In this document: in pieces, positions 9,568 through 37,545 of the stretch | Position numbering within the stretch: position 1 is the first letter of the stretch | Layout of the letters: each line of letters starts with the position of its first letter | From: Luteitalea sp. TBR-22 | Lineage (GTDB): Bacteria; Acidobacteriota; Vicinamibacteria; Vicinamibacterales; Vicinamibacteraceae | Direction: 5' to 3' | Length of the DNA: 64,000 bases | Assembly: GCF_016865485.1 (NCBI RefSeq) | Contig: NZ_AP024452.1 | Span: forward strand, 1,634,501-1,698,500 | Translations under genes and position numbers: made by a program | The notes under the pieces: generated by a model | The model's database searches: none | What the model saw: the letters and a program-made list of their open reading frames with translations, nothing else | Told to the model about the DNA's origin: nothing

Positions 9568-9631
9568 CGACTGCCGACCGCCGACTGCCGACTGCCGTCC
9601 CCCCGATTCCCGATTCCCGATTCCCGATTCC
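9568..9631. repeat. Two adjoining heptamer arrays (CGACTGC and CGATTCC)
   Basis: Four 7-base units of CGACTGC type (one varies as CGACCGC) at 9568-9595 are followed by four exact CGATTCC units at 9604-9631. They end 25 bases before the start codon at 9656. The first type recurs inverted at 37499-37545. Confidence 0.8.
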
Positions 9632-25123: not shown

Positions 25124-25304
25124 AGCGGCGCGGGGCGACAAAAGGTACGGGAAAGGAGCCGCCGACGGATGCGGCGTCGTCCTGATCGGCTACAGGATGT
25201 CGGCGCGTGCAGCAGCGGCATCCCGGCGCGCGGGCCCTTCAAGCCGATCCACCGCGCGCCGATTCCGATCACAGGCCGTCGTCCTCCGCGCGCCGGCGCC
25301 GCGC

Positions 25305-27779
25305 ATGCCCACCCTCGACGCCAGCTCCCTCGCTCATTCCCGCCTCCACGAAGCGCTCGGCGCTGCGGCGCAGGGAATTCTCGACCACGACCTGGTCACC
25401 GACGAAGTGTCGCTGTCGCCCGAGTTCCTCGGCAGGCTGAGCCTGCCACCCGGGCAGACCATCGGCCACTGGACGCAGTGGTGCGCGCTGGTCCACGAAG
25501 AGGACCGCCGGTACTTCGAGGTGCTGCGGGCCACGGTGGCGGCGGGCCGGCTCATGGAGCCCGCGCAGGACTTCCGCCTGCGGCGCGTCGACGGGTCGTG
25601 GGGGACGTTCCGGGCGATCGGCCGCACGCTGACCGTCGACAAGGACGGGCGCGGCCGTCACATGACGGTGATCATCGCCGACGTCACCGAGGCGCGTGCC
25701 GAGCAGGCGCGCCTGCGGCACCTGGCCGCCTCGTACGCCACGCTCAGCGAACTGAACCACGCCATCGTCCACGCGAGATCAGAGGAGGAACTGCTGTTGC
25801 GGCTCTGCCAGGCGGCTGTCGTGTCGGGCGGGTTCACGATGGCGTTCGTGGCGATGATCAACGAGGTGTCGGGCGCCGTGGAGCCGCAGGCGGCCTACGG
25901 CGACGAGTGGGGCTACCTCGAGGGCATCCATGTGTCGGCGTCGGCCGACACGCCGTACGGCCACGGGCCGACCGGCACCGCCATCCGCGAGAACCGGCCG
26001 TACTGGTGCCAGCAGTTCATGGAGGACCCCGGCACGCTCCCCTGGCGCGATCGCTGCCCTGACGGCCCGCCATGGGGCTCGGCCGCCGCGCTGCCGCTGC
26101 GCCGCAACGGCGAGGCGGTCGGCGCGCTCACGCTCTACATGCGCCAGACCGGCGCGTTCGACGAGGACACGCAACGCCTGCTGACCATGATGGTCAACGA
26201 CGTGAACTTCGCGCTCGACCATTTCGCGCGCGAGGCCGCCGGGCGACGGATGCAACGCGAGGCCGACGCCACGCGTGCCCAGCTCGAGGCGACCATCGAC
26301 GCCATGCCCGACCTGATCTTCGAGATCGGGCTCGACGGCCGCTTCTACAACTACCACTCGCCGCGGGTCGACCTGCTGGCGGTGCCCCCCGAGGCGTTCC
26401 TCGGGCGCACCATGCAGGAGACGATGCCGCCCGCCGTGGTCGGCAAGATCGAGGCGGCCCTCGACGAAGCGCACCGCACTGGCTACTCGTCGGGCACCTG
26501 CTACGAACTGCAACTGGCCGGCGGTGCGCGGTGGTTCGACATGTCGATTGCCCGCAAGCGGGTCACCGAGGGCGAGGGGCCGAGGTTCATCGCCGTCGTC
26601 CGCGACGTGACGGCGGCGCGGGCCGCCGAGGCCGAGCGCGCGCACCTCGAGGCGCAGCTGCGGCACTCGCAGAAGCTCGAGGCCCTCGGCCAACTGGCCG
26701 GTGGGCTGGCGCACGACCTCAACAACGTGCTCACGCCCATCCTCATCAACACGCCCCAGGTGCGCGCTGCGGTCACCGACGCCGCGGCGAGGGAACTGCT
26801 CGACACGACCGAGCAGTGCGCGCGGCGCGGCGCCGACATCATCCGCCGTCTGCTGATGTTCGCGCGCGGCGTCCCTGGCGAACGCAAGCCCGTGAGCGTG
26901 GCCGACGTCTGCCGCGACATGGCCAAGATCGCGCGCGAGACCTTCGCGCGCAACATCGCCGTGCACGTGGAGGTGCCAGACGACGTCTGGGCCATCCAGG
27001 GCGACCTCACGCAGGTCCATCAGGTGCTGATGAACCTCTGCGTCAACGCGCGCGACGCGATGCCGGAGGGCGGAACGCTCACCCTCGACGCCGCCAACGT
27101 CACGGTGGTCGATCCGCCGCAGGACGGCGCCTCCTCCCCGGCCCCGGGCCCCTTCGTCCGCGTCTGCGTGCGCGACACCGGCGCCGGCATGAGCGCCGCC
27201 CAGATCGAGCGCATCTTCGAACCCTTCTACACCACCAAGCCGATCGGCAAGGGCTCCGGGCTCGGCCTGGCGACGGTGCGGGGCATCGTGCGCAGCCATG
27301 GCGGCTTCGTCACCGTGGCGAGCACGCCCGGCGTCGGCACCGCGTTCGCCGTCCACTTCCCGCCGGCCGTCGCGCCGCAGGCCACGGCCGCGTCCGAGTC
27401 GGCGGCGCCGCGCCGCGGACGCGGCGAGCTGCTGCTGGTGGTCGACGACGAGGCGACGGTGCGCAGCAGTGTGCGCCGCTGCCTGGTGTCGCACGGATAC
27501 AAGGTGGCCGTGGCAGGCCACGGGCGCGAGGGGGCAGAGCTGTTCGCGCTGCGGGCCGCCGAGGTCCGCGTGGTGATCAGCGACATGATGATGCCGGCGA
27601 TGGACGGGCTGGCGATGCTGGCCGCGATTCGCGCGATCCGACCGGACGTCAAGTTCATCCTGATGAGCGGCCTGCTCGATCGCGCGACCCCACGCGGCCA
27701 GGCGCCCGACGTGGTGCTCAGCAAGCCGTTCGACCCCGACGCACTCCTCGCGGCCGTCGGCCGGCTGTGTGACGTCTGA
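25305..27779 (+). CDS. Hybrid sensor histidine kinase (PAS, GAF, PAS, HisKA, HATPase, receiver)
   Basis: An 824-residue soluble sensor with no membrane segment. Order: PAS (~10-130), GAF (~145-310), PAS (~330-455), HisKA with H-box GGLAHDLNN, HATPase with N-box NLCVNARDAM, G1 VRDTGAGM and G2 GSGLGLATV, then a C-terminal receiver with acidic LVVDDE, phospho-acceptor in VVISDMMMPAMDG, and the conserved LSKPF Lys. It should autophosphorylate and pass phosphate to its own receiver. ATG 25305 is preferred because the upstream in-frame part is Arg/Ala-rich and unlike a domain. The last codons (Asp-Val-stop) lie in a heptamer-like stretch beside the IS5 insertion. Confidence 0.9.
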   Translation: MPTLDASSLAHSRLHEALGAAAQGILDHDLVTDEVSLSPEFLGRLSLPPGQTIGHWTQWCALVHEEDRRYFEVLRATVAAGRLMEPAQDFRLRRVDGSWGTFRAIGRTLTVDKDGRGRHMTVIIADVTEARAEQARLRHLAASYATLSELNHAIVHARSEEELLLRLCQAAVVSGGFTMAFVAMINEVSGAVEPQAAYGDEWGYLEGIHVSASADTPYGHGPTGTAIRENRPYWCQQFMEDPGTLPWRDRCPDGPPWGSAAALPLRRNGEAVGALTLYMRQTGAFDEDTQRLLTMMVNDVNFALDHFAREAAGRRMQREADATRAQLEATIDAMPDLIFEIGLDGRFYNYHSPRVDLLAVPPEAFLGRTMQETMPPAVVGKIEAALDEAHRTGYSSGTCYELQLAGGARWFDMSIARKRVTEGEGPRFIAVVRDVTAARAAEAERAHLEAQLRHSQKLEALGQLAGGLAHDLNNVLTPILINTPQVRAAVTDAAARELLDTTEQCARRGADIIRRLLMFARGVPGERKPVSVADVCRDMAKIARETFARNIAVHVEVPDDVWAIQGDLTQVHQVLMNLCVNARDAMPEGGTLTLDAANVTVVDPPQDGASSPAPGPFVRVCVRDTGAGMSAAQIERIFEPFYTTKPIGKGSGLGLATVRGIVRSHGGFVTVASTPGVGTAFAVHFPPAVAPQATAASESAAPRRGRGELLLVVDDEATVRSSVRRCLVSHGYKVAVAGHGREGAELFALRAAEVRVVISDMMMPAMDGLAMLAAIRAIRPDVKFILMSGLLDRATPRGQAPDVVLSKPFDPDALLAAVGRLCDV

Positions 27780-27780
27780 G

Positions 27781-27797
27781 TAACGTCTAACGTCTAA
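27781..27797. repeat. Left fragment of an AACGTC heptamer array, split by the IS element
   Basis: TAACGTC, TAACGTC, TAA directly after the kinase gene. Joining it to 29073 and dropping one CTAA copy restores an unbroken 7-base register with the right fragment. Confidence 0.75.
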
Positions 27798-29068
27798 GAG
27801 CTTGCTGAAAAACTAAGCCCGAGGGATCGACACCGTCGATCCCGGGTACTACGATGGCGGACATGCGCGGAGACGACCGTCAGCCCACGTCGATGTTCAG
27901 CTATGTGTCGGCCGAGGACCGCGTGCCCAAAGACCATCCGCTGCGGCCGATCCGCGCGCTGGTGGACGAGATCCTCCGTGACATGTCGCGCGACTTCGAC
28001 GGGCTGTATGCCCGTGTTGGCCGCCCGTCGATTCCGCCGGAGCGCCTGCTGCGGGCGCAGTTGCTCCAGCTGTTCTACTCCATCCGCAGCGAGCGGCTGC
28101 TCATGGAGCAGCTCGACTACAACATCCTGTTTCGCTGGTTCGTCGGCCTCGAGATGGACGAGCCGATCTGGGTGCCGACGGTGTTCACCAAGAATCGCGA
28201 CCGCGTGCTGAATCAGGAGGTCGCGCGCCAGTTCCTGGGGCGCGTCGTCGAGCGCGCGTCGGCCTGGATGTCCGACGAGCACTTCTCGGTCGATGGCACG
28301 CTGCTGGAGGCGTGGGCCAGCCACAAGAGCTTTCAGCCGAAGGACGGGCCGCCGGGCGGCGGCGACGGGCGCGATTTCCGCGGCCAGACGCGCACCAACG
28401 ACACGCACGCGTCCAAGACAGACCCTGATGCGCGGCTGTACCGCAAGACGTTTCAGGGCGAGGCGCGCTTGGCGTACCTCGGGCATGTGCTCATGGAGAA
28501 CCGGCACGGCCTGATCGTGGACGGCATGGCCACCACCGCCGATGGCCACGCCGAGCGCGATGCCGCGTTGCTCCTGCTGCACCGGCACGCGCGCGCCGGT
28601 CGCGCGCGGACCGTCGGCGCCGACAAGCAGTACGACACGCACGATTTCGTGGGCCTCACGCGGCAGCTCGGGTACACGCCGCATATCAGCCAGAACGTGA
28701 AGCGACGCGGCGGCAGCGCCATCGATGGCCGCACCACCCGCCATGACGGCTACACCAGGAGTCAGGCGTGTCGGCCGCGCATCGAGCGCGTCTTCGGCTG
28801 GCTGAAACCGCTGGCCGGCTTGCGCAAGGTGAAACTCCGGGGGCTTGAGAAGGTCGACAGCCTGTTCGTGTTTGCCTGCGCCGCCTTCAACCTGCGGCGG
28901 CTGCCGAAGCTGATGGCCGGCGTGCCGGCGACCGCGTGACGCGGCCGCCGACCGCGCGGCGACCCGCCGCGCCGGTCGCGACGAGGCCGCGTGCGGGCGC
29001 GGATCGGCCGTGTCGGCCGCGGTCAGCACGTGGAAGATAGCCCTCATGGCCAGTTCTTCAGCAAGCTC
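27798..29068 (+). mobile_element. Intact IS5-type insertion sequence, 1,271 bp
   Basis: The left end GAGCTTGCTGAAAAACT and the inverted right end GAGCTTGCTGAAGAACT match at 16 of 17 bases. The flanks carry a direct 4-base target duplication, CTAA (27794-27797 and 29069-29072), the YTAR-type target known for the IS5 group. A single intact transposase gene fills the element. It sits in non-coding repeat DNA between two convergent signalling genes and disrupts neither. The near-identical ends and intact ORF suggest a recent, possibly still active, copy. Confidence 0.92.
27854..28939 (+). CDS. IS5-family transposase (DDE)
   Basis: A 361-residue transposase. The N-terminal DUF772-type region covers DHPLRPIRALVDEILRDMS and GRPSIPPERLLRAQLLQLFY (about 25-95). 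The DDE catalytic core has Asp147 in FSVDGTLLEAW, Asp257 in GADKQYD and Glu311 in RPRIERVFGWLK. No frameshift or internal stop is seen, so it should be functional. Start is ATG 27854; an in-frame ATG nine bases later (MRGDD) is also possible. It is the only gene in the element. Confidence 0.95.
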   Translation: MADMRGDDRQPTSMFSYVSAEDRVPKDHPLRPIRALVDEILRDMSRDFDGLYARVGRPSIPPERLLRAQLLQLFYSIRSERLLMEQLDYNILFRWFVGLEMDEPIWVPTVFTKNRDRVLNQEVARQFLGRVVERASAWMSDEHFSVDGTLLEAWASHKSFQPKDGPPGGGDGRDFRGQTRTNDTHASKTDPDARLYRKTFQGEARLAYLGHVLMENRHGLIVDGMATTADGHAERDAALLLLHRHARAGRARTVGADKQYDTHDFVGLTRQLGYTPHISQNVKRRGGSAIDGRTTRHDGYTRSQACRPRIERVFGWLKPLAGLRKVKLRGLEKVDSLFVFACAAFNLRRLPKLMAGVPATA

Positions 29069-29111
29069 CTAACGTCTAACGTCAAACGTCAAACGTCAAA
29101 CGTCAAACGTC
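29069..29111. repeat. Right fragment of the AACGTC heptamer array
   Basis: After the CTAA duplication come two TAACGTC and four exact AAACGTC units. The last unit supplies bases of the final Val codon and of the stop codon of the gene ending at 29110. The same unit recurs at 54244-54285 and, inverted and degenerate, at 44922-45019. Confidence 0.85.
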
Positions 29112-30258
29112 AAACGTCATGCGTGCCCGGCACCCGCACGAGCAGCGGCTCGGCGATGCCGATGGTGCGCACGTACCCGCACAGGATCTCGAGCAGGGCC
29201 GGCGAGATCACCTGGCCGGCGGGCGCCAGGGTGAGGCCGCCGTGGGCGCGCACCGGCTCCTCGAGCACCATCCCTGCCTCGAGGTCGGCGACGTTCACGC
29301 TCACGACGTGCGACCCCGCGCCGGTCAGCCGGTAGGTCAGCAGCGCGTCGAGCAGTCGCGCCGGCGCGAGCTGGCGGGCCCGCAGGGCGTCGATCGCCTG
29401 GTCGCGGTCCTCGCCACGCGCCACCGCCGTGTCGAGCAGCATCGCGGCGCGCAGCAGTTGCGCCCCGAGCTGTTCCGGGCGCATCGCGTCGAGGGGCGTG
29501 GCCACCGGCCCGGCGTCGGTCGCCCCGGTGATCATCGCCCCCACGTCCTGCAGTCCCGGCAGCGTCGCCAGCAGCATCGCGGTCGTGTGTGTCACGTCCT
29601 CGAACTGCTGGCGCTCGGCCGCATCGGCCGGGTGACCGGCGACGAAGCGATCGATGGTCGCCTTGTCGAAGCCGATCGCGCCCAGGCCGGCCAGGGCCGC
29701 CGCCAGCTCGTAGCGATCGGCGCCGGGGATCGACAGCGTGTCGCACATGTGACGCACCGCCCGTTGCAGCCGGCGCAGCCAGTGCTCGAGCGGCGGATTG
29801 GTCCTCGTCACGAGCGCCTGCAGGGCGGTCGCCAGCGAGGCGTCCGCGGGCGTGGCGGTCGTCGACGTGGCGTTGTACCTGGCGATGGCGGCCTCGATGC
29901 ACGCCCACAGCGCCGGCGTCGCGCAGGGCTTGAGCAGCACCCGGAAGATCTCGGCCTCGTTGACCGCCGCGACCAGTTCCAGCAGGTCGGCCTTGCCGGT
30001 GAAGAGGATGCGGACCGTGCGGGGGGCGAGGGCCTTGATGCGGACCAGCAGGTCGAGGCCGTTCATGCCCGGCATGTGGTAGTCGGTGAAGACCGCGGTG
30101 AATGGCGGGCCGGCTTCCACCAGCGCGAGTGCCTCGCTGGCCGTGGCGGCCACCGACACGTCGAGCTGCGCCTTCAACTGTCGATGGTAGGCCGTGCGGA
30201 CCAGCCGGTCGTCGTCGACCAGCAGCACGCGCGGGCGGACCAGCCACGGGGCGGTCAC
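29110..30258 (-). CDS. Response regulator with a degenerate HD-type output domain
   Basis: A 382-residue protein. Residues ~8-125 are a complete receiver (VLLVDDDRLVR, phospho-acceptor in FTDYHMPGMNG, FTGK, LLKPC). The rest is helical and follows the HD-GYP outline (RYELAAALAGLGAIGFDKATIDRF ... FEDVTHTTAMLL). The catalytic His-Asp of that family is missing (LAGLG where LHDIG is expected), so cyclic-di-GMP hydrolysis is unlikely. The GTG start overlaps the TGA of the HDOD gene, showing coupling. It may act through protein contacts. The last codons, GAC GTT TGA, fall in a heptamer array. Confidence 0.82.
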   Translation of the reverse strand: MTAPWLVRPRVLLVDDDRLVRTAYHRQLKAQLDVSVAATASEALALVEAGPPFTAVFTDYHMPGMNGLDLLVRIKALAPRTVRILFTGKADLLELVAAVNEAEIFRVLLKPCATPALWACIEAAIARYNATSTTATPADASLATALQALVTRTNPPLEHWLRRLQRAVRHMCDTLSIPGADRYELAAALAGLGAIGFDKATIDRFVAGHPADAAERQQFEDVTHTTAMLLATLPGLQDVGAMITGATDAGPVATPLDAMRPEQLGAQLLRAAMLLDTAVARGEDRDQAIDALRARQLAPARLLDALLTYRLTGAGSHVVSVNVADLEAGMVLEEPVRAHGGLTLAPAGQVISPALLEILCGYVRTIGIAEPLLVRVPGTHDV

Positions 30259-31475
30259 GACTCGAGCTCCAGCAGGCGCGGCCACGTGGCGCCGTCGATG
30301 GGGCACCCGATGGCCGCCAGGTAGTCGCCATCGAGCTCGTTCGGCGTCGCCGCGTCGCGGGCGTGCTCGAGCCGGTTGGCGAGGTGGACGAGCCCGAGCG
30401 CCACCGACGCCGACGCGCCGCCGTATCGCGGATCGTGATGGAAGGCCACGGCCTCGACGATGGCGTCGGGCAGGCCCCAGAGGGCGAGCAGGTGCCCGCC
30501 GACCCAGTCGTGCGGCGCGCCGATGAGGATCGTCTCGGCGACGCGCAGCGGCACCTCGCCGGACTCGACCAGGTCCTGGGCCTGGCGGTACTTGTCGGGG
30601 AAGTTGATCGCCAGCACCAGCTTGCCGACGTCGTGCAGCAGGCCCGCGGCGCGTGCGGCGCCGATCGCGTCGTGCCCGAGGCGGAAGTGGTGGCCCAGCG
30701 CGGCGGCGCGCCGCGCCGTCCGCAGGCCGTGCGAGAACAGGCGGGCCAGGCCGAGGCGCTCGAGCGTCTGCGCGTCGGCCTGCGAGAGCCACTGCTGTTG
30801 CACGAGCACGGCGCCCACAGTGTCGAGCCCGAGCAGCGTGACCGCCAGCGCTGCGTCGCTCACCGGTTGCCGCAGCCCGAGGAGCGGACTGTTGACGACA
30901 TGCAGCAGTTCCGCGGTCGCCCCGGCATCCTGCTCGACGAGCGCCCCGACTCGCGCGACCGACGGATCGGGGCCGCGGAGTTCCGCGAGCAACTGCTGCA
31001 GCACCTGCGGCACGCTGGGCAGGACCTCGAGGCCGAGGACCAGCGTCTTCAGCGTCTCGTCGCACAGCAGGCCCCGCACCCGCAGCGACTGCTGGAGCGC
31101 CAGGGCGACGGCCCCGGCTCGGGTGTCGCGGGGCAGGCAGGTGTGCGCATGGCGGAGCGCGTCGACGGCCCGTGGCGCGTCGGCCAGGGCCAGCGCCACG
31201 CGGAGCACCTCGGGATGGTGGGCCTGGGCGTGCGCGAGCACCGTGGGCGGCTCCCCGGGCACCACCTCGCACACGGCCGCGTCGATCTCGAGCGTCTCCA
31301 GGGCGTAGAGCGCCTCGTCCACGCTGTCGACCACCGACACCTGCCACCCTGGCACGCGCGCCAGTTCGCGGCCGAGCGCGTCGCGCCGGGCCGGCGACGC
31401 TGCCTGCAGCAGCACATGGATGCCGGACGTGCCGGACTGCCGGGGCCGGCCGCGCCGTCCGGCTCGCGCCACCAT
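30255..31475 (-). CDS. HDOD-domain signalling protein with degenerate N-terminal receiver
   Basis: A 406-residue protein. The first ~125 residues have the size and strand pattern of a receiver (IHVLLQAASPARRDALGREL; AAVCEVVPG) but lack the phospho-acceptor Asp. Residues ~140-390 are an HDOD domain: LPSVPQVLQQLLAEL, IARV-like VARVGALVEQD, VNSPLLGL, and AAGLLHDVGKLVL. HDOD proteins act in signalling, often near chemotaxis or cyclic-di-GMP circuits. It starts 3 bases after the kinase-like gene and overlaps the next gene by four bases, so the three genes form one operon. Confidence 0.87.
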   Translation of the reverse strand: MVARAGRRGRPRQSGTSGIHVLLQAASPARRDALGRELARVPGWQVSVVDSVDEALYALETLEIDAAVCEVVPGEPPTVLAHAQAHHPEVLRVALALADAPRAVDALRHAHTCLPRDTRAGAVALALQQSLRVRGLLCDETLKTLVLGLEVLPSVPQVLQQLLAELRGPDPSVARVGALVEQDAGATAELLHVVNSPLLGLRQPVSDAALAVTLLGLDTVGAVLVQQQWLSQADAQTLERLGLARLFSHGLRTARRAAALGHHFRLGHDAIGAARAAGLLHDVGKLVLAINFPDKYRQAQDLVESGEVPLRVAETILIGAPHDWVGGHLLALWGLPDAIVEAVAFHHDPRYGGASASVALGLVHLANRLEHARDAATPNELDGDYLAAIGCPIDGATWPRLLELES

Positions 31476-37498: not shown

Positions 37499-37545
37499 CG
37501 GCAGTCGGCAGTCGGCAGTCGGCAGTCGGCGGTCGGCAGTCGGCC
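37499..37545. repeat. Heptamer array CGGCAGT x6
   Basis: Four exact CGGCAGT units, one CGGCGGT, one CGGCAGT and a partial, starting at the first base after the stop codon. It is the reverse complement of the array at 9568-9595, including the single variant unit. C-rich irregular repeats continue to about 37705, and no gene is seen in 37546-37723. Confidence 0.85.

Follow-up and report, generated by a model that had tools for sequence, protein, structure and literature searches.

The matched section of PMC10359306 gives YTAR as the duplication motif of IS5 from E. coli. Insertion sequences specific for REP sequences, ISPpu9 and ISPsy8 among others, are described in the part of PMC1525189 that was retrieved, and heptameric intergenic repeats are reported from Xanthomonas and Nostoc in the corresponding part of PMC4692102, which states that the Xanthomonas repeats do not, in general, occur together with insertion sequences or transposable elements. 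In addition, the retrieved portion of PMC4679880 describes TAACTGA repeats of the Beggiatoaceae that can overlap stop codons. None of the literature matches listed concerned insertion sequences in heptamer or tandem repeats.

The locus described here lies in a window of 64,000 nucleotides from Luteitalea sp. TBR-22, by which we mean the whole stretch of DNA that was analysed, and consists of an IS5-family element within an array of the heptamer TAACGTC. As far as the retrieved sections of PMC4692102 and PMC4679880 describe them, the Xanthomonas, Nostoc and Beggiatoaceae repeats are likewise short intergenic 7-base arrays, and the Beggiatoaceae repeats additionally share TAA-bearing units able to overlap stop codons, but the unit sequences and the hosts differ. 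The element itself resembles the IS5 family (NF033581) in its transposase profile, inverted ends and 4-bp YTAR duplication, and differs only in having landed in a heptamer array. With the REP-specific elements, as presented in the retrieved part of PMC1525189, it shares a position within a dispersed intergenic repeat; however, their association is recurrent and specific whereas the present case is one copy with its mapped relatives elsewhere. We consider it highly probable that this is an ordinary IS5-family insertion at a CTAA site that the array happened to supply, with no recognition of the array itself. The features of the locus are as follows.

25197..27779, + strand: upstream hybrid histidine kinase gene with PAS, GAF, HisKA, HATPase and receiver domains (open reading frame, domain profiles)
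27781..27797, + strand: left part of the heptamer array, two TAACGTC units and TAA (sequence)
27794..27797, + strand: CTAA, left copy of the target duplication (sequence)
27798..29068, + strand: IS5-family insertion sequence of 1,271 bp (profile search, genome-wide DNA search, end comparison)
27798..27814, + strand: left terminal inverted repeat of 17 bases, matching the right end at 16/17 (end comparison)
27854..28939, + strand: intact transposase of 361 aa with DUF772 and DDE_Tnp_1, NCBIfam transpos_IS5_4 (profile matches)
29052..29068, - strand: right terminal inverted repeat (end comparison)
29069..29072, + strand: CTAA, right copy of the target duplication (sequence)
29070..29119, + strand: right part of the heptamer array, two TAACGTC units, five AAACGTC units and one extra base (sequence)
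29110..30300, - strand: downstream convergent response regulator gene with an HD_5 match, its 5' boundary putative (open reading frame, domain profiles)

All features of IS5 membership are present in this element. The transposase scores 263.3 bits against NF033581 (transpos_IS5_4, cut-off 140) and exceeds the Pfam cut-offs for both DUF772 and DDE_Tnp_1, the outermost 17 bases at each end form an inverted repeat with 16/17 matches, and a 4-bp YTAR duplication flanks it. Residues D147, D257 and E311, which we take to be the catalytic D, D and E, are invariant across six aligned transposases including this one, and a DDE transposase presumably carried out cutting and joining. Assignment to the IS1182 family was rejected (NF033551, 189.9 bits, below the cut-off of 270). 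Because of the 263-bit IS5 score, and because close relatives have the same ends and 4-bp duplications, the element is not a chance pattern. An earlier note made from the sequence had proposed an IS5-type element of this length with such ends between two CTAA copies, and both the profile search and the end comparison agree with it.

The array can be followed closely on both sides of the insertion. On the left, TAACGTC units at 27781-27787 and 27788-27794 are followed by TAA, and on the right, units at 29070-29076 and 29077-29083 are followed by five AAACGTC units that reach 29118. As the earlier note had it, the repeat junction GTCTAACG supplies the YTAR target, and joining the flanks via a single CTAA gives an unbroken 7-base register; the left edge that it gave (27781) holds, but its right edge (29111) was too short, as the array runs to 29119. 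Taking out the element and one CTAA leaves a rebuilt intergenic gap of 55 bp (1,330 minus 1,275), all of it array except one base. The locus suggests that the array predates the insertion. The histidine kinase gene ends with GAC GTC TGA at 27779, the array starting one base later, while the response regulator gene ends with GAC GTT TGA and has its stop codon (29110-29112) within the array. Both convergent genes thus end in Asp-Val-stop spelled by array-like GACGTC/GACGTT units (27771-27779 and 29110-29118). The HD_5 match of the response regulator is barely above its cut-off (27.3 vs 27.2 bits). Both genes are unbroken, and the insertion was presumably harmless to the host. An empty allele, looked for through the downstream gene in four genus-mates, was not seen among its matches, which are partial, at most 37% identical (39% in the genus as a whole, outside the gene itself) and mainly in the receiver domain, and the empty site is a reconstruction only.

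The register does not by itself single out this locus, since arrays built from one unit can always be joined in register. Twelve same-unit array pairs lying 0.3-4 kb apart were found in the window plus 80 sample stretches, one of them enclosing the focal element. Lag-7 matches across the joined pairs were 31/35 at the focal site and 27-34/35 at the 11 others, and the insert ends were inverted at 16/17 positions at the focal site vs at most 10/17 elsewhere.

The element is sparsely represented in its own genome (6.47 Mb, one contig), where a single further full copy, 82% identical in DNA, has CTAG on either side and lies outside any array. A search of the genome with PF01609 found only these two, and a third DNA match of 44 bases is negligible. 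One genus-mate (G001) has three copies with 89-90% protein identity and duplications of CTAG, CTAG and CTAC, none of them in an array. A second (G002) has a 58% relative with a CTAG duplication and no array, a third (G003) has a partial copy (L037) whose single visible end is followed by CTAG, and no copy was found in a fourth (G004). Values of dN/dS for three pairs of copies, which share sequences among them, are 0.07-0.10, and selection has therefore maintained the transposase. With a dS of 0.65 between them, the copies of the own genome are separate lineages rather than products of a recent burst. Location in an array is thus seen for 1/2 full copies in the own genome and for 1/5 close copies when G001 is included; several copies recurrently in one repeat, the pattern of the REP-specific type, are not found for this element.

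Target preference was assessed in a wider set of relatives. One search gave 77 loci, and another, across 193 genomes, found 17 places distributed over 14 of them. The 60 rows used for end mapping comprise those 17 places and 43 of the 77 loci, with 34 short or partial matches and the partial copy L037 omitted. Removing 11 rows without ends by a strict motif and 5 duplicates left 44 elements, the focal one included; the ends of two of them (L099 and L103, 27% identity) are doubtful, and an element dropped from the set (L137) is flanked by CTAG on either side, with no array. Identical 4-bp flanks occur in 31/44 elements (CTAG 16, TTAG 6, CTAA 5, TTAA 2, CTAC 1, TTAT 1), and 29 of these 31 are YTAR. 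Among the remaining 13, with unlike flanks, YTAR stands on both sides in 7. A short-period array surrounds only the focal element, whose lag-match run is 35 vs 10 for the next. Two elements (L134, L084) have two copies of a 7-base unit in their flanks at a distance of over 70 bp from the insertion, which we counted as chance. At the DNA level, 250 plasmid records contain relatives with 60-80% identity, and one record has a relative at 80-90%. Most of the 44 elements come from genomes of unmeasured array content, so their absence from arrays weighs little; what is informative on an array preference is the group of five close copies from two array-rich genomes.

The genome has a GC content of about 70%, and YTAR is scarce in it. 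The window holds 17 YTAR sites, whereas base composition predicts about 331, an order-1 model about 104 and an order-2 model about 55. This shortfall is mostly the known avoidance of TA and stop-like words, with CTAG accounting for most of the rest: CTAG occurs 8 times vs 45 expected, while CTAA, at 6 vs 6.4 expected (order-2), is close to expectation. Leaving out one site within the element and one duplicated copy, 15 window sites remain; 3 of these are in the focal array and 2 (44923, 44930) border another heptamer array. Across an even 1.6-Mb sample of the genome, 32/439 YTAR sites lie in or at most 7 bp from arrays of period 7 to 9, which with their margins cover 8,988 bp (0.56%); the mask adds 7 bp on each side, making this 7.3% share generous, but it misses degenerate arrays. 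A 400-kb sample of G001 gave 19/187. Arrays therefore hold 7-10% of YTAR sites in the two evenly sampled genomes, and about one insertion in 12-14 would be expected to land in an array without any recognition of it. By simple arithmetic from these shares and the intergenic share given below, one or both of the two own copies would lie in an array with a probability of about 0.14-0.17, and one or more of the five close copies of both genomes with a probability of about 0.38, so no targeting is needed. The suggestion of the earlier note that such arrays may act as safe landing sites is not supported in any special sense and reduces to a passive effect, the 7-10% share of a scarce motif. When the flanks of other copies were inspected, as it had advised, the other full copy, the three G001 copies and 43/44 mapped elements proved to lie outside arrays, the outcome that it had named as refuting its proposal.

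Few heptamers carry this target. Three exact AACGTCN units occur at 25 places in the genome (the focal one and 24 others), and the CTAA-bearing TAACGTC form occurs within the matched pattern at only two of them, the focal site and 5757544. Likewise, only 2 of the 27 unit types with three exact copies contain YTAR (AACGCCT and AACGTCT, one array each).

Selection rather than mechanism might also have placed the element here, if insertions occur anywhere with YTAR and those in intergenic arrays survive. The sparing of both neighbours agrees with such a haven, as does the location of arrays mainly outside predicted genes (14/149 merged arrays mostly coding). By a home-made gene prediction for the 1.6-Mb sample (1,250 genes, 88% coding), 25/288 intergenic YTAR sites are in arrays, but 263/288 are outside and other gaps are far commoner. 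The 11 other array pairs, with insert ends inverted at no more than 10/17, also speak against it, and no result favours arrays over other gaps; we regard this explanation as unlikely. Slippage that lengthened all or part of the array once the element had entered a shorter repeat is very unlikely. The two sides are unlike, the left having TAACGTC only and the right TAACGTC followed by AAACGTC, which would fit such an expansion, but in-register units flank the CTAA copies on either side, and 24 further AACGTCN places vs one other full copy indicate that arrays form without the element. Least credible is targeting of heptamer arrays by the transposase, or through a DNA structure that it favours, in the manner of the insertion sequences that target REP sequences (described in the retrieved part of PMC1525189), since apart from that precedent only one copy exactly inside an array speaks for it, while the other own copy, the three G001 copies and 43/44 mapped elements lie outside short-period arrays and, by eye, no element splits an array in 16 TAACGTC-bearing stretches of G054. 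The array insertion is a single event with which a mild array preference would be compatible.

The preferred reading is thus that of a chance landing on a scarce target. An IS5-family element would have transposed into a CTAA that arose from the junction between TAACGTC repeats, its transposase using and duplicating a 4-bp YTAR site and presumably recognising those four bases and not the array. As YTAR is rare, arrays with TAA-containing units would take a share of insertions beyond their length, and a place between the stop codons of two convergent genes would have made this insertion harmless.

The heptamer arrays, which are numerous and in some families have fixed borders, are a more interesting feature of this genome than the insertion. 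The 1.6-Mb sample contains 174 period-7 runs of at least 12 matches vs 2 in one order-2 shuffle, only 13 and 10 runs of periods 8 and 9, and 122 period-7 arrays with three exact copies in the 27 unit types. Other 7-base arrays lie in the window at 9602, 37499, 44933, 50806 and 54243, and also in the genome samples (L139-L218). By the home-made prediction, median distances from arrays are 40 bp to gene 3' ends (n=139) and 78 bp to gene starts (n=119). Arrays of CTGAGCC (L263-L283) often start after a fixed TGCTTT, the pattern TGCTTTCTGAGCCNTGAGCC occurring 21 times and the backwards pattern not at all. An inverted GGCTC-type stretch lies at most 60 bases upstream in 7/21 of these cases vs 22/420 control 60-mers, which in those seven amounts to two arrays facing round a short core; there are hints that CTGAGCC arrays are dispersed units and not the outcome of slippage at each site alone. 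Arrays of CGGCAGT share a common tail, CGGCAGTCGGCGGTCGGCAGTC, at 9 places genome-wide (backwards pattern 0), two of them in the window at 9569-9590 (- strand) and 37520-37541 (+ strand). Additionally, arrays of different heptamer families abut in one gap at four loci (L147, L193, L198, L202), for example GGGCCTT then AAACGTC. Matches to the rve profile number six in the genome; at five of them no run of period 7 to 9 lies within 1.5 kb on each side, a distance possibly short of the ends of a long element, and at the sixth (L222) a GGGCCTT array stands 523 bp before the match.

Such arrays also occur beyond the genus. TAACGTC arrays are frequent in G054, from another family of the order, where the 16 stretches read by eye (L227-L242) cover 20 of 25 counted places and related heptamers such as TGACTTC precede many arrays. 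Among 193 genomes of the class, 5 have matches to AACGTCN arrays, in three cases solely as GAACGTC; the reversed pattern, used as a control, likewise matched 12 genomes, with 44 matches in G142, probably through other heptamer arrays.

The focal insertion provides a clean, rebuildable empty site. A transposon within a repeat need not imply targeting where its target is rare genome-wide, and short repeats containing a rare target can hold a disproportionate share of its targets. By extension, though we think it improbable, TAA-unit heptamer arrays in YTAR-poor, very GC-rich genomes could form a noticeable passive reservoir of harmless IS5 targets that lowers the cost of carriage. If true, heptamer arrays would shape the load of insertion sequences passively, through composition alone.
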